From Antedon bifida (Eukaryota > Echinodermata > Crinoidea > Comatulida > Antedonidae), in assembly GCA_963402885.1 (NCBI GenBank), contig OY727093.1, positions 8,381,501 to 8,445,500 on the forward strand: DNA of 64,000 nucleotides, read 5' to 3'. This document shows positions 3,358 through 53,500 of this stretch, one piece after another. The position numbers and the translations under genes were made by a program. Numbering within the stretch: position 1 is the stretch's first letter; every line of letters starts with the position of its first letter. The notes under the pieces are model-generated. The model searched no databases. It was not told where the DNA came from and worked only from the letters and a program-made list of their open reading frames with translations.

Positions 3358-3591
3358 CACTGTAGAAGAGTTAAAAAACCCTCTTTTATTTTATTAATTT
3401 TCACACTGTAGAAGAATTAAAAAAACCCTCTTTTATTTTATTAATTTTCACACTGTAGAAGAGTTAAAAAACCCCCCTTTATTTTATTAATTTTCACACT
3501 GTAGAAGAGTTAAAAAACCCCCCTTTATTTTATTAATTTTCACACTGTAGAAGAGTTAAAAAACCCTCCTTTATTTTATTCATATTCACAC
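3358..3591. repeat. Tandem repeat, five copies of a 46-47 bp unit
   Basis: Units begin CACTGTAGAAGAGTTAAAAA at 3358, 3404, 3451, 3497 and 3543. Copies are 46 or 47 bp and nearly identical, differing in a C/T run in the middle and a few bases. There are no spacers between units, so this is a minisatellite rather than a CRISPR array. Confidence 0.9.
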
Positions 3592-4548
3592 TTTCAAATA
3601 ATAATAATAATCTGCGGAATGTACACGAATTTGACCTAATTAAGTTTTAACTCAATATCCTTTAAAGTACTTGTAACCATAATTAAGTTTGCAGATCTTT
3701 AGATGTGGAACTTGAAGCGCATTACAATCATGCGGAGCATCATTTAAATTTTCTGTCGGATAGGACAAACGAAACGAACAATTAACTATGATAAAAGAGT
3801 TCATTGTGACATAATTGAAACATCATAATGCAGGTGTCAAGATGAAGGCAAACCGCTAAGTGTTTCTGTTAAGTCACCACTCCAACTCAATTATATTTAT
3901 CGCATTTCTTTTAAGTCTCCAATTTACACTTATATTTTTACTCATAAATCTGGTAAAGTTAGCATATTCTGTATTAGCATTGGCCTTTGTTTAAAGACAG
4001 AGTTTGAAAGATGCTATTTTTGTAAGCTGTCACACGTTTAGTGTCGTTTCATCACCTGACATATAACAATAATACAGTAATGTGCTGTGCAAACAGTGCT
4101 ATATTGTTGACCACACCTGCGGGGGCACTCATCAAAGTAGTCTTTGTTCTAAACTTATCAGTTTCATCAGAAAGAAGTGACTTGTAACAAGATCTCATAT
4201 TCAGCATCCTATCTGATATTCAACTATAATATATTATTAGTAATTATGACAGTTTTGTGATCGTATCAAGTGTGCCGTGGTGGCGATATCTATTACTGGT
4301 GTGTTATCGTAATCATTTTAATTTTTTCCGTTATTGATATGAATCTATTATATAAATATTGTTTTTAAGTTGTTATTGTTCACAAAATAAGTTTTCTCTC
4401 ATAATTTTCTCTATTCAAAACACACAACCTGAAGTCGGTGAGACAAAAGACTAAATTAATACAGGTATCTTCTTTTTAGTTTGTGAAACTGAAAAGCCTG
4501 CAATCATTATATTGATGATCTAAAATAAACCTCATAATACAGATACAG

Positions 4549-5927: not shown

Positions 5928-6125
5928 TAACAGTAGGCCTATTATAATAGAACTTACATCTACAGATTAATACTTTTTAAAGGAAATTTTTCAACAACTG
6001 TATACTTATCATGAAGTACTAGGTATGCGTGGATACGTCTTAAGTACTGTAATGGTTACGATAATGTGATATTGCAAAATATATTAATGGGCGATCTTTC
6101 CTCTGTAACTATCGTAGAAAACAAT

Positions 6126-6131
6126 TTTATT
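6126..6131 (-). promoter_or_regulatory. Candidate polyA signal of the CDK inhibitor gene
   Basis: AATAAA on the minus strand, about 385 nt below the acceptor of the last exon. It is the first canonical signal I noted in that direction. Confidence 0.4.
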
Positions 6132-6294
6132 TTTTAATCGACCTTTCCGTGACTTCTTTATAACTTTATGAATAAATAAATTAAACTTTATACGTACAGT
6201 ATTTACAATGAATGTGTTACTAAAACACTTAAACATAGATTTGAGTTATAATATAACTTTACAGTATAAGCCAACTTCTCCTGGTTTAGCCTCT

Positions 6295-6330
6295 TTTGGC
6301 GGGAAAACCAGAGCCAGACTTGGCGGGAAG
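6295..6330. promoter_or_regulatory. Pair of E2F-like sites
   Basis: TTTGGCGGGAAAA at 6295-6307 matches the E2F consensus TTTSSCGC/GGCGGGAA. A second site, CTTGGCGGGAAG, lies at 6319-6330 in the same orientation. Both fall inside the probable 3' UTR exon of the CDK inhibitor gene, an unusual place for promoter elements. They could serve an enhancer or an unannotated start. Confidence 0.4.
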
Positions 6331-6999
6331 AATGCTCTTATGTAAAAGTTACAATACTATTTTGTGGTTAAATATAGCGTGATGTTTCGTGTCTGTCATC
6401 GTGCCAGCACATTGGTAGACCTTTTTGGCAGTTCTCCAGCAACTGATACGGCAACGCCTGGGTCTTCTGAGCCCCTCGGGATACTTATCGATGTGCTGTA
6501 CCGTACCCTCCTGACCTGCAAAGATAAATAAAACGATTTTTAATAACAATCTTTTAATTATGCAATTGTCCACGATAAAAATAACAGGTGCAAAAGTAGA
6601 AATACGATCTTTAAATGAGAAGAGTTGATTGAAAAGGTGGTATAACCGCAAGATAACGCTAAATTACATAGGTAGGTATACAACATCGCTATAACCCATT
6701 GTATGCAAATATTTTCAAGTGAATTCAACCATTTAACACGAAGACAGATTTATCCCGAATAATAACAAACGCGAACTTTTCGACACGCCTTTGAAACGAG
6801 CAATACAGGTACTTGTTGTTTTGATTCTTTACAAATCCAGGTCTCGTTTTATCAAGTTACCCAACGTGACAAAATTGCAGTTTTTCATTTAATGACGTCA
6901 TCACTGTACATTCAAACGATTGTTGAGAAAACATAAAACGAAGCATCTCTTCGTAGGCCTATATAAATTAAGCCGTATTCATTTTGATTGGCTGACGTG

Positions 7000-7127: not shown

Positions 7128-8964
7128 TTGACCCAGTAATTACACGAATACAGCAACCGGTTTTGAATCATCTTTTTTTTAACATTATCAATTTATCAAA
7201 TACACAATCGTATGTGATTATTCTTTGTCAATTAAACTGGACATATAAACAGTACATTTATCATCGCCGCCGAAATGCGGATTGGAACGTACCATTACCT
7301 TATTTGGTTAATGAAGCAAGTTTACTACTCAACGCGTTTGGAACGTTTTGTTTGACGCGTTATCGTCCACCACAACATTTGACAGTCAGTAACTATTAAT
7401 TACAGTATAGTTTATTAAGAATTATCGGGAGATACTGTAATAAACAAGAATATTGTGATATATTATAGTGTTGTTTTTCAATAAACTACCCGCAATTCGC
7501 GGGGAAAAACTGGACTGAGCCACAACAAAAAGTAGCTTACGATCACGTCTGTTTAATAACACGTGAAGTTAGAGGGTAGGTAACGCAGCTTGTGGTCTTG
7601 AAACACACGCGAAAACGCCACGACAAGCATCTCCAAATAAATTACCAGCCCGTCAATCACAGCAGCGTTAAGAAATTACAATTTACGAACGAGATTTGCT
7701 ATAAATATTCCGTTACAATACTGACGTGACGTTATTTTTTCTCGAGTCAATGTTTTTTGATTGATAGTCAGTTATGTGAATTCAAAAAGAAAAATTCCCA
7801 AATAAAGAGAATTTATTTATTAAACACTGCATTGCGAGATGTGATGAACCAAGACTATTTAAATTGGAAGACAACAAATATAACTATTTTTGTAATTCAT
7901 ACAAAAAAAAACAATCGTCAGTTCTGAAAACAACGATGCTAAACAAACAATAGTTTTGATTATAGTCGATTGCAATCGGGAGATGTTCCCAAGTGAAGTT
8001 CGTCTAGTTGGAAGACAACGCGACCAGGACGCGTCCAGAAAGAATGCAATCCTTTGTTCTAACGGTAAGAAGAATTTACAGAAATAACAAACACGGATGG
8101 TGTTATTTCGTGGACAGTCGCGATCTGAAATCATCATCTTCAATGGTATTGTGATTGTGCGTTGATCATGCTTCAGCGATTTCTTGCTATGCAAAGGTAC
8201 AAACAAAAACAACTCTTGTCAAATTGCGAGTGTATTGTATACCCCTCGATAGGTAATCATTTTGACAATCAGCTGGTTTTGAGAGAAAATAGGACAATCA
8301 AAAGGGATTGATGCTTTTTGTTAAAATCGGCAGCTTTTGAAATGTTCATTTATTAAACGTTTTAATAAAATGTTAAACTCAACATAGCAAAATATAAGAA
8401 TCCGTTTTATTATATTGTTCATTTCCTCATTTCTATTTATATATATATATATATATATTTATGTGCAGACTTATATTACGACGCGCGTTATGGATTATTA
8501 GCTTGCTTACTATTCAGTTAAAAGGTTAAATAACAATCTTAGAAAATTAACAAACTACGTAAGCGGCATTATAAATATAAAAATAGAATGCTGTTATATG
8601 ACTGTCATAAATCATTTATAAGTCGCAAAGGTTAGTTTGTGCCATAAATCATTTTTGGATTTACTTCTAATCTATGTGATTACGTGTTGCACGAAACATG
8701 ATAAAGAGTGATTTTTAAATTGCCATATTGAAACTGCAAATCGAAACAACAAGGTCTAGATGTACTGTTCAGAATCAATATGACTTTTCATTTATTAAAA
8801 CTGTACATATCAGGAGAGTAAAGATCACTGATATTGCTCAACAAGTCATGTTTTACTTTATTTATTATATGATAGCCCTGCTGTAATGCAAACATGTAGC
8901 TTTTCCGCATGTAAATAACATCAAACTTTTTAATTTCTTTAATGTAAAGTACATACCTTTATAG

Positions 8965-11801
8965 TTAAGCACTCTTGGTGTTTGTATGCGATTGTTGTTT
9001 CGTTGTCGACGAACGTGACATTGATCTTTCATATAGTTTTTGCCTTGGTCTGAATACTAATCTGCGTTTTGGCAAGAAATCTGAAAAGCAGAAAATAAAT
9101 CTTGTTAATTATCTAAAAAAAATTCTGAAAATATTTGAATGTATTTATGCTAAAGACAAACTCCGAAAGAGCAATAAATCTGCAAATTAGAAAATAAATC
9201 TTGTCAATTATCTGAAAATATATTTCAATTTCTGAAAATATTTGAATGTATTTATATGCTGAAAGACAAACTCCGAAAAAGGGCCAACCCATCGTTTAAG
9301 ATTGTTCGCAATACCAATATTTATCTGAAGATAAATCTTTACAGCATTACTGTACTCTTCAATAAATCATGGAGAAATAAGTTAGATTAGATTAATCAAA
9401 CAAAAACAACCAATTCCTTCTTTATTATTCCAATCTATTAATTATATTTTAGGATTCCATTTCTTCCTGTTCCGTTTTTAGAATCGAAGGAAATAATATA
9501 TTTAGGTAAATTAACAACTGATCAGGAAATCCTATGACGAATTTATCGAATACTAACCGACAAGTTACTACTGGAAATTAGAAAATGTTCCAACAAAGCG
9601 ATTTAATTCTTTGTTCTTAAAATCAGGTGCCGTATTGACAGAATAAAAAGGGTATTATTTATTCAATGTACTCCAATTTGAAGGATTACACTCGATTCAA
9701 TAGAAAAGAGATCTACACTCTATCATCAATCAATATTCAGTAGAGTTTTCTCTACAAAGGAAAGCTAAATATGCATGAAATTTACTCCAACTTCTGCTTT
9801 GTTTACAGTCAACTATATTCTGATGATGATGTGTTATTCTTTTACGGCTGGCACGTGGCGCTTGTCAAGCCATTGGGCACCAAAGTGCCAGCAGATGTTT
9901 CCCAGGAGAAGGCTCCCGATGGCAACCGAAGGTGAGCGTTGATTAATGAGTCCTACCTCCACCAATCCCCACGGCCATTTTTAATTAACTCGTGTTCCTT
10001 CACAAGCGATAGTGACCCTTCACAGCAACCTATGCTGGTACTGCCATATGCACTATTTTTTCCTTAACAAAGTGCCCAATATTCTCAAATAATTGGCTTC
10101 CCACTGAATTACACCATTAATTGCTATTCCAATGTAACTCACAATTAGTTGAATAAATTTGTCTTTTATCATTCATTATTATCTTAACGTAAAACGGTAA
10201 TGATCATAAAAATTGTAAAACTATCTCAAATTCACAATGAAGTAATTTAATCATAAAAACTGCCGGCAGCCCTCCAAAACAATTTTGATTCGTTTTTCGG
10301 GGAGATAGATCTTACATCTCGCAATGTTACAGGTACCCAACATTGGAAACACAAAAATAGAATTTACAGTAGATAGCAGGCCAGCATTAAAAGTACACTA
10401 AACCCAGGGTATTTTATCGTGCAGATTAAACAGACTATTTTTATAATATGATACATTAATCAATCATATTGGAACCGGAAAATTGGGACTGCGAAAAAAG
10501 AACAAATAAAAGCAAATACAAGGTGACCTTGATTTGAAACCTAAAGCTTTACTTGTTTGTCAAATAAGTAGAGCCTATTCAATATTCGCGTGCATCAAAT
10601 ACTGTGTAACTAAACTATCTTATGTATCTGACTTTTCAATTATAGATAAAGTTCCTTCTACAGTACATAATAATATGAAAGTGTATATCGAAATCAATAC
10701 CGAACCCAGCCCAGGGTAGCTAAAAAAACCCTAGAAAATCTGGGCAAGTTTAGACACGATAATAGCATCAACGCCCGATTTCGAGGGATGACTTTTAAAG
10801 TGTTTGATTGGTCCTTCTCTGGGCTCAACTTTGGAATGATTTCTTCTGGTAATGTGCAGTTTTATTGCTACAACTTCGGGTGGTACGCAAATTTGGCCAT
10901 GCTTCAATCTTTATGAAATAATCCTCAGTCAGAGGCTCAGTTTTCTTTTATATCGTAATGTGATAACATGGATGTAAAGTTTGCAGCTTTAATTTACTCC
11001 TTTTTCTAGAAACGAGTTTACTCTGTTTATGATTGATCTTTCTTTGTGTATTTATCTCTAAATGTGCCTTTACAGTAACTTAATTCCAGGAGTAGGCCTA
11101 ACTAATAGATATCCAGACTCGTCTTATAAACTACACATTGTTTTACTTTATCATCAACAACTTATTCGAGTTGAAACACACTAGTATTTTTTCATTTTTA
11201 GAACATCTAGTACAGAATGAAAACAAAAATCTGTATTAAAGCATAATGTAGATTCGAAAAAGCAGAACCCTGAAAGAGAATTTGAATTAGAGGTACATTT
11301 TTAAATTAAATTACCAGCTTGTAGCCGATTCTTACCTGTAATTGTTGTCTGTTTATATTGCTTTGGTGTTTGTGATGAACTGGACGGTTCTTCTTCGTGC
11401 TGTGTAGCAATCGGTGAAGTTACAGTACTACTACATTGCATTGTTTCGTTATCTAATCCATTGTTTTCTGTCGAATCCGGTGAGTTTGTTGATAACGTAA
11501 CAAATTTAGTTATAATTTCCCGTGTTCGATACATGTTTGAACAGGATTTTCCGTCTAACAAACTCCATTCCCAACGACTTGTAGAGTTATTTACTGGCAT
11601 TTCGGTATCGGGATCTAGTCCTAAAGATTCGAGTTTCTTGCGATCTTCTAAGCACGATTGCTTTAGCTCATTCTTCAACCAAGCGTCTGTAGCTGCATGA
11701 TCTTCGCTCGTCGTGCCAAATAAATTCCTTGCAACTCTCGACTTTGCTACTCGTCCTGGCCTAGAACCACACACTCTTATTTTATGGACGTCAACAGTCA
11801 T
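8965..11801 (-). CDS. CDKN1: p21/p27-type cyclin-dependent kinase inhibitor
   Basis: Nuclear inhibitor of cyclin-CDK complexes. Coding exons are 11336-11801 and 8965-9080 (the exon continues to its donor at 8957), joined in frame to give 193 aa; human p27 is 198 and p21 is 164. Residues 22-92 form the CDI domain: cyclin-binding RNLFG at 25-29, a helical linker, WEW at 77-79, and a Tyr at 91 where p27 inserts its 3-10 helix into CDK. The middle is Ser/Thr-rich. Across the intron the sequence becomes QTTITDFLPKRR (151-162). This matches the p21 PCNA-interacting box, with the Thr-Asp pair and a basic residue at +4 that define a PIP degron read by CRL4-Cdt2, and a KRR nuclear signal. The start is the first ATG after a TATA promoter. 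A third, non-coding exon lies at 6515. Family assignment is very secure. Whether it is orthologous to p21 or p27 is not decidable here, because a single invertebrate gene predates their split. Confidence 0.93.
9090..9285. repeat. Tandem duplication of about 100 bp beside CDK inhibitor exon 2
   Basis: The segment starting AGAAAATAAATCTTGTTAAT near 9090 is repeated from about 9189. Both copies share TTTGAATGTATTTAT and AAAGACAAACTCCGAAA blocks. The duplication begins about 10 bp outside the exon 2 acceptor, so it enlarged the 3' end of intron 1. Confidence 0.75.
9810..9931 (+). other. GC-rich island: candidate antisense exon or structured RNA
   Basis: A clearly GC-richer block in AT-rich intron 1 of the CDK inhibitor gene. 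On the plus strand it has a strong acceptor (TTTGTTTACAG) and a strong donor (GAAG then GTGAGC). One frame is open throughout and reads ...FFYGWHVALVKPLGTK..., 122 nt, phase 2 in and out. The minus strand also has an open frame across it. It can also fold: GCTGGCAC pairs with GTGCCAGC, and GGCAC/GTGCC closes a CAAA loop. I recognise no protein or RNA family. It may be an exon of an unannotated gene, a domesticated repeat core or a non-coding RNA. Confidence 0.35.
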
Positions 11802-38000: not shown

Positions 38001-38918
38001 TACTTCCTCCCTTTTCTGTTTAGTGTTGAAACCAGGAGGTCGTCTTCGTCGAACTTCTTCCAAAGCAATCTGCAAAAGATGAAATAAGACAAATATATGA
38101 AAGTCATCTGAAGAAATATATATGTTTTTGAAGGACAAGGTTATTTATATAACTATTTATATTTCAATGTTTAGGGAAATTGATTAGTTTCAACTATTTT
38201 TTAGCCCTTCTCTTGATATATTATGTTACAATGTTTACTTTATATATTTAAGTTTACATGGATTTATGTAACACAATAACAACTTACTTCAGATGGAGTG
38301 GCAAAAAGATTTGTGCTAATTCCATAATGAGCAAGTGCCTAGAAAAAAATTAAAAAAAACACCTGATTGAGTATTCATCATTGAATTGAATAAAAATTGA
38401 ATAAAAATTCAACCAAAACAATAGATGGTCATCATCTTCACACGGTCACCATCATCTTCACAAGATGGTCATCATCTTCACACAGTCACCATCATCTTCA
38501 CACAGTCATTATCATCTTCACACAGTCACCATCATCTTCACACGGTCATCATCATCTTTACACGGTCACTATCATCCTCACACAGTCACCATAATCTTCA
38601 CAAGATGGTCATCATCTTCACACAGTCACCATCATCTTCACACGGTCACCATCATCTTTACACGGTCACTGTCATCCTCACACGGTCACCATAATCTTCA
38701 CATGGTCACCATCGTCTTCACAAGGTCACAATATTGTTTACCTTTTTTACTCGATCGTGAATGATTGCAAGTTGACTCTGTGCATTCTCCTGAATCCTGC
38801 GTCTTTGTTCAAGGTCCAGGTTGAGGAAGATCTCTCTGACATCCTTTTCCACCTCAATGTGGTAGCTTCCTACCTTCTGTAAACTCATCTTCTCCCCAGG
38901 TGGTGGTCGACGTGGCAT
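29029..38918 (-). CDS. Large coiled-coil protein, 31 exons, family not recognised
   Basis: I could not name this protein. Exons: 38742-38918, 38288-38338, 38004-38069, 37589-37705, 37146-37219, 36753-36866, 36451-36557, 36099-36206, 35910-36010, 35667-35780, 35223-35349, 34896-35005, 34477-34540, 34193-34314, 33999-34073, 33693-33889, 33328-33461, 32961-33016, 32826-32880, 32502-32548, 32242-32364, 32102-32158, 31824-31906, 31233-31374, 30807-30920, 30576-30678, 30370-30461, 30153-30229, 29459-29660, 29284-29375, 29029-29167. Every junction keeps frame; product 1079 aa, starting MPRRPPPGEKMSLQKVG. The N-terminal 140 residues are mixed and partly helical. The bulk (about 150-920) is Lys/Glu/Leu/Gln-rich heptad-like coiled coil with a loop near TSTAASTLPSPVEM. 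The C-terminus is Pro/Gly/Arg-rich and less helical (TTGPHGVHMRIPDKPKD, FPAYITTPRTLD). A ciliary or cytoskeletal structural role is plausible, but this is inference from composition only. Three MITEs sit in its introns. It is head to head with CSRNP. Confidence 0.85.
29970..30117. mobile_element. MITE copy e (AGCTCTGTC family)
   Basis: Complete, with both inverted ends and the internal CATATATGG/ATGATGTC modules, in the intron before coiled-coil exon 29. TTA follows the right end. Confidence 0.85.
31565..31669. mobile_element. MITE copy f, left end truncated
   Basis: Starts inside the terminal repeat at ATCAAACTAGTTTGACAAAA and ends with a canonical GTAGACAGAGCT. In the intron between coiled-coil exons 23 and 24. 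Confidence 0.75.
33198..33298. mobile_element. MITE copy g (AGCTCTGTC family)
   Basis: Both ends present. Its right border lies only about 30 bp from the donor of coiled-coil exon 17. Confidence 0.85.
38425..38727. repeat. Minisatellite of about 20 bp units in coiled-coil intron 1
   Basis: About fifteen units related to CACACGGTCACCATCATCTT run without spacers, with CGG/CAG and ACC/ATT/ATC variants and occasional AAGATGG insertions. The array ends about 15 bp before the donor of exon 1, so unit-number change could move close to a splice site. Open frames over it are repeat artefacts. Confidence 0.9.
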
Positions 38919-43450: not shown

Positions 43451-46400
43451 ATGGAGGCTACGTGCGAGAATATGGTGCTAAAACGTAAACACTCCCCCAC
43501 CCCTGTAGGCGATTGGGACAACTCGGAACATAATGGAAGACCCAATTCCCCATCATCTAGTGCTGATGAAGCGTCTTGTAAGTATAACAGTACACTATTA
43601 TCAAATTAACTTTTAAGCATGTAAAGCTCTGCTTACACTATCAAACTTTATGTGACAACAAAATGTGATGTGCCCATATATAGACATGATGGCATATCAC
43701 TACCATATTTGGGCATATCACTACCACATTTGGGCACATCACACTTTTTTTGTCAAACTAATTTGATAGTGTAGACAGAGCTTTAGATTAGTAGCTAAGC
43801 ACAAAGCTTGATTCACACTAGGATGCAGTGCAATGACATACTGTACACGTACAGTAATTCAAGTTATTTGACAATTGTAAGCAACAGCTCATCATCTGAA
43901 TGGATGTGAATTATGTTCTAATTCAATTGTTGTCTTTTATAGGCGAGTCAGCACAGCCAAAGAGAAAGAGAAAGAAGCAAGTAAAGTTTAATGGAGTTAC
44001 TGTTTACTATTTTCAAAGATCTCAGGGTTTCACTTGTGTTCCAAGCCAAGGAGGGTCCACTCTTGGTAAGGATTTCTTCTGATCATTTGACATTGTAGGC
44101 CCGGGCCTTATATTTGTTTGTACTGCAATGACAAATTTATACTGTAATAGAGTGAGTGGATTGTTGCTACTGACAATTGTAACATTCTTGTATCTTGTGT
44201 TATCTTGTGCCAAGTTTTCTAATTTGTCTTCATGTATATGATATAACACAGTGTAAATTGGTATGGAATTGTCCAATTGCCTGACACGTTGAATGTAAAT
44301 CATTACAGACCTATATGGAACTAAAATAGGCACTGTGAAGTTGTGTATAGTTTCTCTCATGCATAGTCATACTGTACGTAATGCCTTCAGCTAAAGGGTA
44401 GTGCTAGGTAGAATAAAGAAAGTGATCACCTACTGTAATCCACCTCTTGCTAGCATAACTACTGTATGTCCATGTGTTTCATATCATGAAATGGGACCTG
44501 TCACATGCTATAACAAAATTATTTTGAATTTTACAGGAATGGAACATATTCATGAATTTAAAGAGAATTACAGTTTGAATGCCTTTGCTCTGGAACAAGA
44601 TCGACAACATCGGGAACTTTTAAAAGAACAACTCTTACAAAGAAAACAACGACAAATGCTTGAACAAAATGAATCGGAACTGTTGGATAAAAGCATACAA
44701 GAAATTGCCGACAATGAACTAGCAACAATAAATGTAGAAGAATACTACTTTCTACAGCCTGTGAACACAAAAAGACGAAGACTTATGCTTCGATCAGCAG
44801 GCGTGACCAAAATCGAAAGCTGGGAAAAATCTGAATTGAAGAAAATCCGGTTGTCTCGTGAAAAGTGTGGTTGCGATTGCAAAGTAGTTTGTAATCCGTC
44901 AACGTGTGCTTGTAGTTTAGCTGGAATCAAATGCCAGGTTGACAGATTATCTTTTCCATGTGGATGTAGTAAGGAAAGCTGTGGAAATGTAACTGGAAGG
45001 GTTGAATTTAACCCCATTAAAGTAAGGACTCACTTTCTACACACTTTAATGCGTTTAGAGGTTGAAAATGGAAAAGTGTCCGAAGATAGGACTGATAATG
45101 ACACTGATTATACTAAACTGGAAAATTCAGTTTATTTAGATGAAAGTACTGACCGAGTTCTTGATCACGGTCAATGTAAAGAATGTGATTCAATACCTTA
45201 CTCGGACTATAGTGATCAGTATACATGTGATCAATACTTAAATGGACAGAAACCTGGTGAACAGGGTCAATTTATTCAACAACTAGACTCAAATAGTACT
45301 CCTATGAACTTTTCTTGTACAAATACAAATATTCCACTTGATCTTCAATCTCATAACAATTCAAACAACCAGTGCGATGGTAATTATGATGGCGAATCTA
45401 ATCACAATACCTTGAACATGTCTATCAACAATTTGTGCAATGTTTCCCAGTCGGATATCGGCGATTATGCCAGTACCACATCGGATGAAAGCGTGACCTC
45501 TGAATCAGATTCAGAACCTCCGTATGTTCATCCAACAATCTCTGTGGAAAATACAGACTTTGGTTCTACTTCTTCAAACAACATCGAGAAAAGTATTTTT
45601 CAAACACCTGATTCTTCACCGGAACAGCAATACACTAAGTTGATGCCCCTTGACCTTTCACATGCACTAGGTGATTTTGACACTTGTGGTGCCTCCCCAA
45701 CCTACACACAATTGAGCACAACCTCGCGGTCGTGTCCCGATGCATATTATTCCCAGGTTTCTCACGACTCATACACAAACTATTTAACAGACTGCCATCA
45801 TTTCTCCAGCAATGCATCCAAAGCTGAAAAAACATGCTTCCAGAAATTGAACACAATCACTTCTTCTTGTACACTTGGAAGTCATTCTGATTTTGGTTGT
45901 GGTGGTTACAACTTAAACGATTCCAGACCGTCTACAGAACATACAGCAGACTCTAATATGCAATCTATTGACCAATCTGCATTATATGAGGATGAATCCA
46001 CCGTTGATTACTTCAATGAGAATGCAAGTGGACAAGAATACAAAAAGGGTACGAGTACAGGTGTACATTTAAAACATTTTGAAACCGAGAATATAAGTAA
46101 GGTGTCTTCTACTGTCAAAGATGGATGTTTTAAGCAGGAAGTCTGTTTACCATCAAATGAACACGGTCAGAATTTAACAGGTGATTGCCAAACAGCTTCT
46201 CATTTGCAGTTATCTGATAGAGAAGAAAATAGTAAGTTTATTGTAGATAAGCGTGACATATCTTCATCACCTGCCAGTTCTTCTAACATACCATTTGTTG
46301 GGTCACAGCAAGATCAAGTGTGTGTGGAAAAAGGGCAAATATCTGAATCATACGCGACATCTGCAGACAACCGGTTTATTGTTGAAAAGATTGATGTGTC

Positions 46401-47493
46401 TTCATCATCTGGTGATTCTTCCAACATACCATTTGTTGGGTCATTTCAAGAGCAAGTGTGTCTGGAAAAAGGACAAATATCTGAATCGTACCTGACATCA
46501 GATTCACGTTTAACACCTGAACCAGATGTAAGTGAATCTCTCTTATTTGATGTTAATTCATTTGAAGAATCTCGGAAAATACAATATCAAGGTAGTGGGC
46601 TTGTAGAGCAATCAACATCACAAAACTGTTTATCAGAAAAGCAATTAGCATCTGATAATGCATCAGAATATTGTCTTAGTAGCAGAGATAACAAAACTGA
46701 AGAGTTCTTGGAATTAACTAAAGCACAAAGTGATATTAACAAGGTTGACATTCCATTGAAAGAACCAGTTGACAGAGAAGCCAATCTAGATTTACCTTTT
46801 GACTGCCAACTTCCTCAAGATAAACCAACAGCTGATGTCAGTTTGCAGCCCCTACCAGCAGCTGATAACAGTTTGCAGCCCACACCAGCAGCTGATAACA
46901 GTTTGCAGCCCACACCAGCAGCTGATAGCAGTTTGCAGCCCACACCAGCAGCTGATAGCAGTTTGCAGCCCCTATCAGCAGCTGATAACAATTTGCAGCC
47001 TGCACCAGCAGATGACAGCAGTTTGCAGCCTCTATCAGCAGCTGATAACAGTTTGCAGCCCACACCAGCAGCTGATAGCAGTTTGCAGTCTACGCCAGCA
47101 GCATGTAACAATGTGCCTGCACCAGCACCTGATATAAGTTTGAATCCTATACCAGAAGCTGCCAATAATCTCTTGCAGCTCACATCATATGATAAAAGTC
47201 TACAACCAACACACGCTGACGTCAAATTGCTGCAGCCCACACCAGAAGCAGCTAATAATTGCTTGCAGCCCACACCAGAAGTGGCTGATAATTGTTTACA
47301 GCCCATATCAGTAGCAGATAATTGCTTGCAGCCGACCTCAGTTTCAGCTGATAAATTTTTGCAGCCCACACCAGCAATGGCTGATGATGATTTACAACTC
47401 ACACCAGCAGTAAATAGCTGCTGTATATTTAGTAAAAACACAGTCCAAACACTACCTGACAACAGCATTGGAACAACTCAAGAAACTGAATGA
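43451..47493 (+). CDS. CSRNP: Cysteine/serine-rich nuclear protein (AXUD1/CSRNP family)
   Basis: Nuclear, probably DNA-binding transcriptional regulator of the AXUD1/TAIP family. Exons 43451-43577, 43943-44065, 44537-47493, all in frame; 1068 aa, much longer than vertebrate CSRNP1-3 (about 550-600). Family blocks in order: basic [18 protein letters not shown], then [17 protein letters not shown] (residues about 48-85), a Gln/Glu-rich helix, [20 protein letters not shown], and the cysteine-rich domain at about 194-232 ([20 protein letters not shown], then [10 protein letters not shown]), ending [20 protein letters not shown]. The rest is Ser/Asn/Asp-rich and apparently disordered. It contains an internal duplication (about 650-738) and a tail of 10-residue SLQPTPAAD-type repeats (about 850-1050). 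A MITE lies in the first coding intron. AATAAA at 47641 is the likely polyA signal. Confidence 0.96.
43625..43782. mobile_element. MITE copy i (AGCTCTGTC family) in CSRNP intron
   Basis: Full-length, with the left end AGCTCTGCTTACACTATC and a canonical right end. The interior has the doubled CACTACCA-ATTTGGGCA module. It lies about 50 bp after the CSRNP exon 1 donor. Confidence 0.85.
46239..46500 (+). repeat. Internal duplication in CSRNP coding sequence
   Basis: Two in-frame copies of about 45 codons: [20 protein letters not shown]... and [20 protein letters not shown]..., each followed by VGS, a Q-rich link, EKGQISESY. They lie in the disordered region. Confidence 0.85.
46840..47420 (+). 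repeat. In-frame 30-bp repeats encoding SLQPTPAAD units
   Basis: About nine tight 30-bp units (GCTGATAACAGTTTGCAGCC-type) from 46840 to about 47110, then looser degenerate copies to about 47420. Consensus SLQPTPAAD[N/S]. Unit length is a multiple of three, so the frame survives copy-number change, and it also leaves the opposite strand open by chance. Confidence 0.9.
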
Positions 47494-50563: not shown

Positions 50564-53500
50564 TTATGTCTTCTTCATAGCAAAAATGTTTCCATTAGCC
50601 GGATGGTTGATTACTAACAAGAATGCAGCATATCCAGATAACGTCATCTTATTTTCTAAAACCAAACATACATGAAAATAGTATTTATTTGTATATAAAT
50701 TATGATAGCTTTGTTTTGTTTTTATATATTTAGGCAAATTTCCAAGGATAACCATAAGCGAATTCATTCACTATCCTCCTTAAAGGTGGCAATCCTGTTC
50801 ACAAGACAAACATATACACAAGATGCTCTACACAAACAAAGACTTATTAAAAGTATTTGGGAGTGGAGGTGTAAATTGTCATTAAAAAAAATATGACAGG
50901 ACTTGAACCCAGGACCCTTGGATTGGTAGCCAAACATCATAACCACCAAGCTTTACTAGTAGACATTAAAATTGACTTGGTAAGTTACTATATATATATA
51001 TATATGAGTATTATTAGGTTTTCTGACATGTGGAAACTGGATACTATTGAGTGTCCAATAGCTTCCACGGTTGTACTTACCAGACATGTTTGTTGATAAT
51101 TCTATCCAATTCTGCAGCCAATTTATAAAAACTTGGTCAGTTAAACCATCACTTGAATAGAAGCCACGGTCAAAGCAAATCTGTGAAAATAATATATGAA
51201 TATAATGTTTAGTTTGTGATCCAACTATTTCACATAATTTTGTCCATTAGAAATGATCATTTAAAACTACTGTACAAGTAAGGGAACCATTAGCAATGAT
51301 ATAAAGTTCTGTCTACACTATCAAAGTTAACATGATGTGCCCATATATGACAATGTCATATCACTACCATATTTGGGCATATCACTACCATATTTGGGTA
51401 CATCACACTTTTTTTTTCAAACTAGTTTGATAGTGTAGACAGAGCTTAACAAAAATCTATAATATAGATGTCTAAAGACATTTGTTTTATATTTTTATTT
51501 AGGAAGGTGTATTGCCAAGATGCTCCACGTAAGTGAGTAGAGAAGTTGAACTTGAGACTATGAGATTGAAAGGCAAGCACAAGTTGTATATCTAAGTTAT
51601 TTCTTTGTACAGTACCCTCTGAAGCTGCACAAGATCCAGTTTGTGAAGGTCGTTGTCCATTTTGATTCCTTTATCTATCGTTTGAAGTTCGGTCAAGCTG
51701 AACACAAGTCTACGGCGTAAGAAGAATGATGGTTGGAGGTATGGATTTATGGATAACAGCTTACATATATCTACCTGTGTAAAGATAAAATTAAATTGTA
51801 GTATAATTCCAGTTTCCTAACACTTTGTGACTTAAAGGCTTTTAAACTCTACAAAAGGTTGAAATACTATAAAAAATAATCCTATGTACCCTTTCCCAAT
51901 TGGTTTGAATTGTTGTTACTTTGCACCTCCCCATACTCATAGCCCCATAATTGATCTATTTATGTATGTGCAAAAATGATGTTTTGGTTAACAAAGCATT
52001 GGCAGTTGTATAGTAGTAGTAGAATCTGCAAGACATTGGAGATCTATACAATATGTATGGATATTGATTAAATGCAATGGATGTGTATGTAAAGCTGGTT
52101 ATGTAAAAACTCCGATGCTTTTCCATCATTGGAACAACCGTGCTAAACCAATTAAATGTGAAACATACTAATTGTTTCCTTCGTAAATTAGCAACGTTCA
52201 ATGATTCTTCAAACAAATTTCTTGAGTTGAGTAAATCTTGTGCGACAGTTGCTTTCCCCTGTTCAATCTGAAAAATAAATGAGTATCATATCATTTTAAA
52301 TATAATCACACAAACTTGGTTATCAGACCAGAATTGCAGCTCACACCGATTCTTTTATTCCTACAGGTACTCATGAAGAAGAAGTAGTCTATCTGACTGT
52401 AAAATGATTTAGATTTAGTCTGACAGAAAGATTGACAGAAATGATGTACTGTAAAGCTAATCCTTAAATGATGATTATTGTGGATTATGATGGGTATGTA
52501 TTTTATTATGAGCTGGACAGTTTAGTTAATAAACTTTTTTATATTTATTAAATATCATCGAGGAAGGTTATTATTGGACATGGATGGTAGCCATCATAGG
52601 GGGTAATTATGCTGGGGTATCCATCCTAGGGGGTAATTGGTGCTATAGTGATTATTTCAGTCTGAAAAGTGAAATAACCTACCCTTGTGATTATTATATC
52701 GAGCATTTCCTTCTCAGCCTTTGTCCTGCACTGTGAATTTTTTAGATGTTTTAAAACTTGTGGGTATAATTTAACTCGGCGTTTCTGATCATTTACCCTG
52801 TATTTGTTCTGTTGTTCAGCTGTAAAGAACTGCTGACTTAGCAGTAGGCGCGGTCTTAGTGCTCTGTTTATAGAAAGAATATTTTCATTAGATAACTCTG
52901 AAATCTCAACTGTAAAATTGATTTGGATTTTGTTTTTGTTTATTGCATTTTGAATTAAATGAAATCAAATATTTTGGGACAAAAGTGTATTGTTATGCTA
53001 AAATAAGTAGGAATATTTTATCTTTCTTCTACTACTTACACAATAACCAGAACAGCATAGAACACAACTGGAAAGAGGCAAAGTATCAGTGTTGGCGTCA
53101 CCTTATAAAGATCTCTACGATACTATAAGAAAATAAAATCATTGAATTAAAAGAAAATGAAGTACATGGATTGCCCCTTGACCAATGATGTTAACCTTCT
53201 GTTAACCTTTGACACACCAACAATAAGGTAGTAAAACTGAGGTCATTAGGCAGACATCCATTAGCAACTAATTCACCAGGAGACATATTTTTCTGCCAAT
53301 GTTTGTTATCCATGTTTTGGATGAATCAGATGAACTAATTTGATTATGTATATTGATGTTTTCCCCTTACCTGTCTAATAAACATAACATCTTTCCAAGG
53401 TAAATCCAGGTAAGATATCTTATTTTCTTTCATCTTTTTTCGTAAATGTAATCTATATTTAGTATCATGCCATGTAGTTTTTGCTCCTGAAAAAAACAAT

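Follow-up and report, generated by a model that had tools for sequence, protein, structure and literature searches.

A Cip/Kip-type gene of Antedon bifida with a putative p21-type PIP degron, split at an intron position common to human CDKN1A, CDKN1B and CDKN1C

The minus strand of the window (the whole 64,000-nucleotide stretch of DNA analyzed here) holds an open reading frame that resembles a cyclin-dependent kinase (CDK) inhibitor and that stops inside what looks like the PIP degron of p21. The locus therefore raises the question of whether a downstream exon completes this degron and, if so, whether the interrupted arrangement is peculiar to this gene or inherited. Reasoning from the DNA and from printed human data, we give a probability of roughly three in four to the following answer. 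The locus would encode a CDK inhibitor of the Cip/Kip type whose C-terminal tail is like that of p21; the Asp codon of its PIP degron would be interrupted by a coding intron homologous to those of CDKN1A, CDKN1B and CDKN1C; the protein would be destroyed in S phase on PCNA via CRL4-Cdt2, and perhaps also following DNA damage; and the tail would be ancestral, with p27 having lost the PIP residues. The coding part of the proposed gene comprises the following features.

11336..11801, minus strand: coding exon 1, running from the ATG through codon 155 and including the G that opens codon 156, placed by translation and donor.
11562..11726, minus strand: CDI-like region, residues 26-80 (Pfam coordinates; genomic positions by arithmetic).
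11336..11351, minus strand: first half of the candidate PIP degron, QTTIT plus the G of the Asp codon (coordinates by arithmetic).
9081..11335, minus strand: predicted phase 1 intron splitting the PIP box Asp codon as G/AT, placed by donor and acceptor scores and by the corresponding human introns.
8965..9080, minus strand: predicted exon 2 as far as its stop codon TAA, reading (D)FLPKRRLVFRPRQK..., with the second degron half, an RRLVF motif and a basic tail.
9061..9080, minus strand: second half of the candidate PIP degron, the last two bases of the D codon, then F L P K R R to B+4 (coordinates by arithmetic).

Exon 1 supplies 466 nt of coding sequence (155 codons plus G), including the CDI-like region and the first part of the degron, and ends at a near-consensus donor, CAG/GTAAGA, which falls at the 99.9th percentile among all GT dinucleotides of the minus strand. 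The preliminary description had this exon ending in QTTIT plus one base, and its frame and coordinates were right. The acceptor preceding position 9080, ATTTATTTTCTGCTTTTCAG, is pyrimidine-rich and ranks 6th of 538 downstream AGs under a generic splice matrix. Beyond it, exon 2 continues exon 1 in frame (phase 1) to a stop codon whose end is position 8965. The joined coding sequence is 582 nt long, and its conceptual translation is a product of 193 amino acids that reads ...SSSSQTPKQYKQTTIT-D-FLPKRRLVFRPRQKLYERSMSRSSTTKQQSHTNTKSA. From the splice sites and the reading frame we infer that QTTIT is joined to DFLPKRR by splicing.

It is very improbable, in our judgment, that positions 9080-8965 are a chance open frame and that the real second exon lies elsewhere. 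Tails of this kind do arise by chance: when 6585 AGs on both strands were compared with the post-junction tail of p21, DFYHSKRRLIFSKRKP, the 9080 site came second with a score of 33, and an unrelated plus-strand AG at position 18 scored 38. Five downstream AGs, moreover, have a higher acceptor score than the one at 9080. Only 1 of the 538 downstream AGs is followed by a reading that opens with D[FY] and has a basic pair (2 of 538 under a looser pattern, and 2 of 541 under a differently worded basic-pair rule); since a first-order Markov null satisfies the loose rule of D[FY] and a basic pair 0.44 times per run, that rule is weak evidence by itself. Against a chance frame, when the 11.3 kb downstream was simulated 300 times with a first-order Markov model, a p21-like continuation arose in 2 cases and such a continuation with a comparable acceptor in none, under a null that is generous (0.81 comparable acceptors per run versus 6 in the real stretch). 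The junction codon and phase also agree with those of three human genes, as set out below. The earlier proposal that 8965-9080 is the in-phase exon starting DFLPKRRLVF is thus borne out by the acceptor, by the open frame to the stop codon and by the chance controls.

In the joined product, QTTITDFL occupies residues 151-158, with TD at PIP positions 5 and 6 (QTTI-TD-FL) and arginine at both B+3 and B+4. By the published rule (PMC8871960), a PIP degron has T and D at positions 5 and 6 of its PIP box and a basic residue at B+4, and in human cells B+3 is important as well; the TD pair and the basic residue at +4 that had been noted earlier are both present. The word "complete", which the preliminary description applied to this degron, is too strong. 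The canonical PIP box, Q-x-x-[ILMV]-x-x-aromatic-aromatic, fails because position 8 is Leu and is matched only when that position is relaxed; like this strict pattern, two ELM-like Cdt2 patterns found no match in the tail. In a curated set of 83 motifs from 77 ligands, 43% lack one of the two aromatics (PMC6881253), a figure that concerns PCNA binding and not degradation, and Leu at position 8 therefore need not abolish PCNA binding.

These departures bear on an alternative in which the tail is a PCNA-binding PIP box without degron activity, as in replication enzymes, Leu at position 8 or the shorter linker blocking recognition by Cdt2. We consider this unlikely. Although position 8 violates both the canonical and the two Cdt2 patterns, the tail does have the TD pair and the basic B+3 and B+4 residues on which recognition by Cdt2 is reported to depend. 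The pathway itself probably exists in this animal, whose genome holds Cdt1, with a PIP-like frame at its N-terminal end. A degron of the p21 type is the reading that we retain.

The rest of the tail is also of p21 type. A PDB search with a 31-residue stretch around the motif returned three matches, all of them p21 peptides, at E values of only 0.4-0.58. The flank downstream of the motif carries a charge of +6 over 16 residues, versus +6 over 13 in p21, and the flank upstream +2 over 8 residues, versus +4 over 5 in p21, whose affinity for PCNA is reported to be strongly affected by charge. The RRLIF sequence of p21 has been reported to act as a ubiquitin-independent degron (PMC11476297); RRLVF resembles it and, by analogy, would act like the RRLIF box. 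A Skp2/Cks1 degron formed by the QTPK stretch (residues 144-147) was considered and rejected, since its pattern fails at two positions: SQTPKQ (Q144-Q148 region) lacks the acidic residue at -2 and the Lys at +3 of the p27-type phosphodegron [DE]xTPxK, which has no match in this protein, and the C-terminal EQTPKK of p27 accordingly has no counterpart here that fits.

Membership in the CDI family was more weakly marked at the N terminus. The Pfam CDI profile aligned to residues 26-80 with 17.2 bits and an E value of 0.0057, short of the curated cut-off of 25 bits. An RxLF cyclin-binding motif is present at the start of the domain (RNLF, residues 25-28). As for the WNFDF-type CDK-binding aromatics, no W or F was aligned to WNFDF in either the p21 or the p27 alignment, and the corresponding stretch reads LGLDP in the register judged best by eye. 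The human p21 and p27 letters used for these comparisons agree with the PDB, for p27 along the whole sequence (7b5l) and for p21 over residues 8-85 plus the tail peptide. Residues 1-100 aligned to p21 with a z score of 5.3, reached by 0 of 500 shuffles, and to p27 with a z score of 3.1, reached by 4 of 500; full-length z scores were 9.6 and 1.3, respectively, and those of the tail 7.8 and -0.7. The claim of a "p27-like CDI domain" did not hold, in that the raw local score of residues 1-100 was 50 to p21 versus 42 to p27 and the Pfam match itself fell below its cut-off. Searches of wider scope were silent: the whole protein had no match in the PDB up to E 10, and PF02234 gave no match at E <= 0.001 in this genome, missing the present gene as well, or in 14 control genomes.

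Among known inhibitors, human CDKN1A (p21Cip1/Waf1) is alike in being a CDI protein with a QxxhTDF tail and a basic B+4 residue, followed by RRL[IV]F and a basic tail. Around the junction the two read QTTIT-D-FLPKRRLVF here and QTSMT-D-FYHSKRRLIF in human p21. The present protein differs from p21 in having Leu instead of Tyr at position 8, a linker one residue shorter, a less basic upstream flank and a much weaker CDI domain.

The main result concerns the intron. As deduced from printed data, the coding intron of human CDKN1A, CDKN1B and CDKN1C lies inside an Asp codon in phase 1, the split codons being D149, D159 and D274, respectively. For CDKN1A, a repair oligonucleotide for the RRLIF region of exon 3 is printed as ...CTCTCCTCAG then ATTTCTACCACTCCAAA (in full ...CTCTCCTCAGATTTCTACCACTCCAAA; PMC11476297). 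We read TCAG/AT in this oligonucleotide as the acceptor, by which exon 3 would start with the last two bases of the D149 codon. For CDKN1B, exon 1 is reported to end within the Asp159 codon, and c.475 corresponds to 158 codons plus one base, that is, to phase 1. For CDKN1C, c.820G>A is D274N (PMC6713069), and an intron 1 splicing variant is written c.821-2A>G (PMC9367242); the exon therefore ends between 820 and 821. The present gene splits D156 as G/AT, and its exon 2 begins ATTTCT, as does the human CDKN1A exon that lies past the intron and completes the PIP Asp codon. A phase 1 intron in an Asp codon is thus common to the four genes, and in p21, p57 and the present gene this Asp is PIP position 6.

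Two of the human paralogues complete the comparison. In CDKN1C (p57Kip2), residues I272, D274, F276, K278 and R279, which are mutated in IMAGe syndrome (PMC6713069), fit the spacing of the PIP motif, and D274 is the residue split by the phase 1 intron. Like the tail proposed here, p57 has a PCNA-binding site that controls its stability; mutants of this site are stabilized and impair S-phase entry (PMC4389716, the available portions of which do not name Cdt2 or CRL4). The central PAPA repeat region of p57 (PMC4389716) was not seen in the present protein. A PDB search with a provisional p57 tail sequence gave 2 weak matches, neither of them p57. The C-terminal QT box of p57 likewise has no counterpart that we could see in the present protein. 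CDKN1B (p27Kip1) is alike as a CDI protein whose exon 1 ends in the Asp159 codon in phase 1, and it differs in having no PIP box at the junction, which reads ATD/DSSTQNKR (letters matched to PDB 7b5l), in line with the earlier statement that vertebrate p27 lacks this box.

Because the intron sits at the same place, in the same kind of codon and in the same phase in the human genes, inheritance from the common ancestor of CDKN1A, CDKN1B and CDKN1C is suggested. The simplest view of the split degron is that Cip/Kip genes inherited it; in p27 the intron was kept, and the PIP residues were probably lost in situ. The preliminary description of a degron "built across an intron" therefore stands as to the in-frame split; it does not stand as a peculiarity, since human p21 and p57 share the arrangement. 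Among the open-access papers listed on the evolution of the family, none was seen to state the shared Asp-codon intron or an ancestral p21-type tail.

Among invertebrate Cip/Kip proteins, Drosophila Dacapo has already been described as having a PIP degron (PMC5586379), and the present gene adds to a known type. Xenopus p27Xic1 and p16Xic2 are CDK inhibitors with a "specialized PIP box" (TD, basic +4; PMC3655096), to which the present tail is likened by description. Turnover of Xic2 requires PCNA binding and is promoted by added Cdt2, although this vertebrate protein did not readily bind Cdt2 in pull-downs (PMC3655096). In the available portions of a paper on Oikopleura CDK inhibitors, a PIP box is mentioned for E2F1 alone (PMC3973624).

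The gene probably extends beyond position 8965, and two further features are predicted.

8957..8964, minus strand: predicted untranslated end of exon 2, 8 nt, preceding the donor AAG/GTATGT.
6105..6515, minus strand: predicted 3'UTR exon 3, placed by an acceptor and an AATAAA; its 3' end is approximate.

The donor AAG/GTATGT, 8 nt past the stop codon (intron from 8956), lies at the 99.4th percentile of minus-strand GTs. The acceptor at 6515 (CGTTTTATTTATCTTTGCAG) ranks first of the 538 AGs downstream of exon 1, and an AATAAA is found 3' of it at 6131-6126. The gene may thus have a second intron after its stop codon, as in CDKN1C, for which a variant is written c.951+2 (PMC12604900); with a protein of 316 amino acids (951-nt coding sequence), that notation means that CDKN1C has an intron where its coding sequence ends, like the one predicted here.

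The strength of the 6515 acceptor also bears on regulated splicing, in which some transcripts would run from exon 1 straight to 6515, skipping exon 2, or would keep intron 1, and so yield a stable inhibitor without the degron. Splicing to 6515 would open a 55-codon phase 1 frame after exon 1, and retention of intron 1 would yield the short tail GKNRLQAGNLI. This seems to us quite improbable: a Pfam search with the 55-residue frame had no hit up to E 0.1, and a 3'UTR exon is the simpler account of the 6515 acceptor, because exon 2 has a good donor of its own 8 nt past the stop. Exon 3 was also considered as the source of a known domain, and neither its phase 1 peptide nor its plus-strand reading had a Pfam match up to E 0.1. 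Splicing through exon 2 thus remains our preferred reading.

Elsewhere in the window, a frame of 1032 amino acids at 44395-47493 (plus strand) encodes a cysteine/serine-rich nuclear protein (CSRNP_N, E 9.1e-68), the C-terminal part of which contains, by eye, many similar 10-residue repeats. A tandem array of period 46 occupies 3358-3592 (5.1 copies, 95% matches). An open frame at 52626-52964 (minus strand) has a sub-threshold LETM1-like match (16.6 bits versus a cut-off of 25.3), and one at 38405-38764 (plus strand), made of HTVTIIFTRS-type repeats, is likely to be an in-frame reading of a simple DNA repeat.

To judge from its motifs, the tail would most likely serve to have the inhibitor destroyed on PCNA in S phase. 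Splicing would complete the degron, the tail would dock on PCNA loaded on DNA, CRL4-Cdt2 would read TD together with the Arg at B+3 and B+4, and the inhibitor would be destroyed in S phase, possibly also after DNA damage. Two genes that bear on this pathway were found in the same genome. One is PCNA: two of its exons, joined by hand, gave a PCNA match to 71 distinct PDB sequences, the best 60 of which are all named PCNA; the joined exons contain NIDKEHLGIPDQEY at what we take, from human PCNA, to be the position of the interdomain connecting loop. A Cdt1 gene is also present, and the open frame upstream of it contains MAQSKVTFYYGSRKK, a PIP-like N terminus with basic B+3 and B+4 and with F instead of D at position 6. 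This frame, at 6151-6882 of L006 (reverse complement), includes MAQSKVTFYYGSRKKS, in which the usual TD reads TF; we infer from its position that it is Cdt1 exon 1. The putative Cdt1 N terminus had no match in the PDB. Cdt1 of this lineage may be able to do without the TD pair, which the CDI protein keeps.

The preliminary description had proposed an ancestral protein that combined a p27-like CDI domain with a p21-like degron. Its degron part is strengthened by the shared intron, whereas its p27-like CDI part is not supported. We lean, without great confidence, toward an ancestral deuterostome (perhaps bilaterian) Cip/Kip gene that had the full p21 tail, a PIP degron plus RRLxF split in an Asp codon, together with a second intron just past the stop codon. 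From such a gene p21 would have kept the ancestral state and p57 the PIP box, whereas vertebrate p27 would have lost the PIP residues in place and kept the intron.

If this is true, PCNA-mediated destruction in S phase would be the ancestral control of Cip/Kip proteins, and the mode of p27, without a PIP box, would be derived. The intron would offer a fixed landmark for aligning the fast-evolving, disordered C-termini of these proteins across animals, a task at which sequence similarity by itself performs poorly. In disease, variants at the final base of the exon have been reported for both CDKN1B (c.475G>A) and CDKN1C (c.820G>A; PMC6713069). In p21, in p57 and, as predicted, in the present gene, a single splice event completes the degron.
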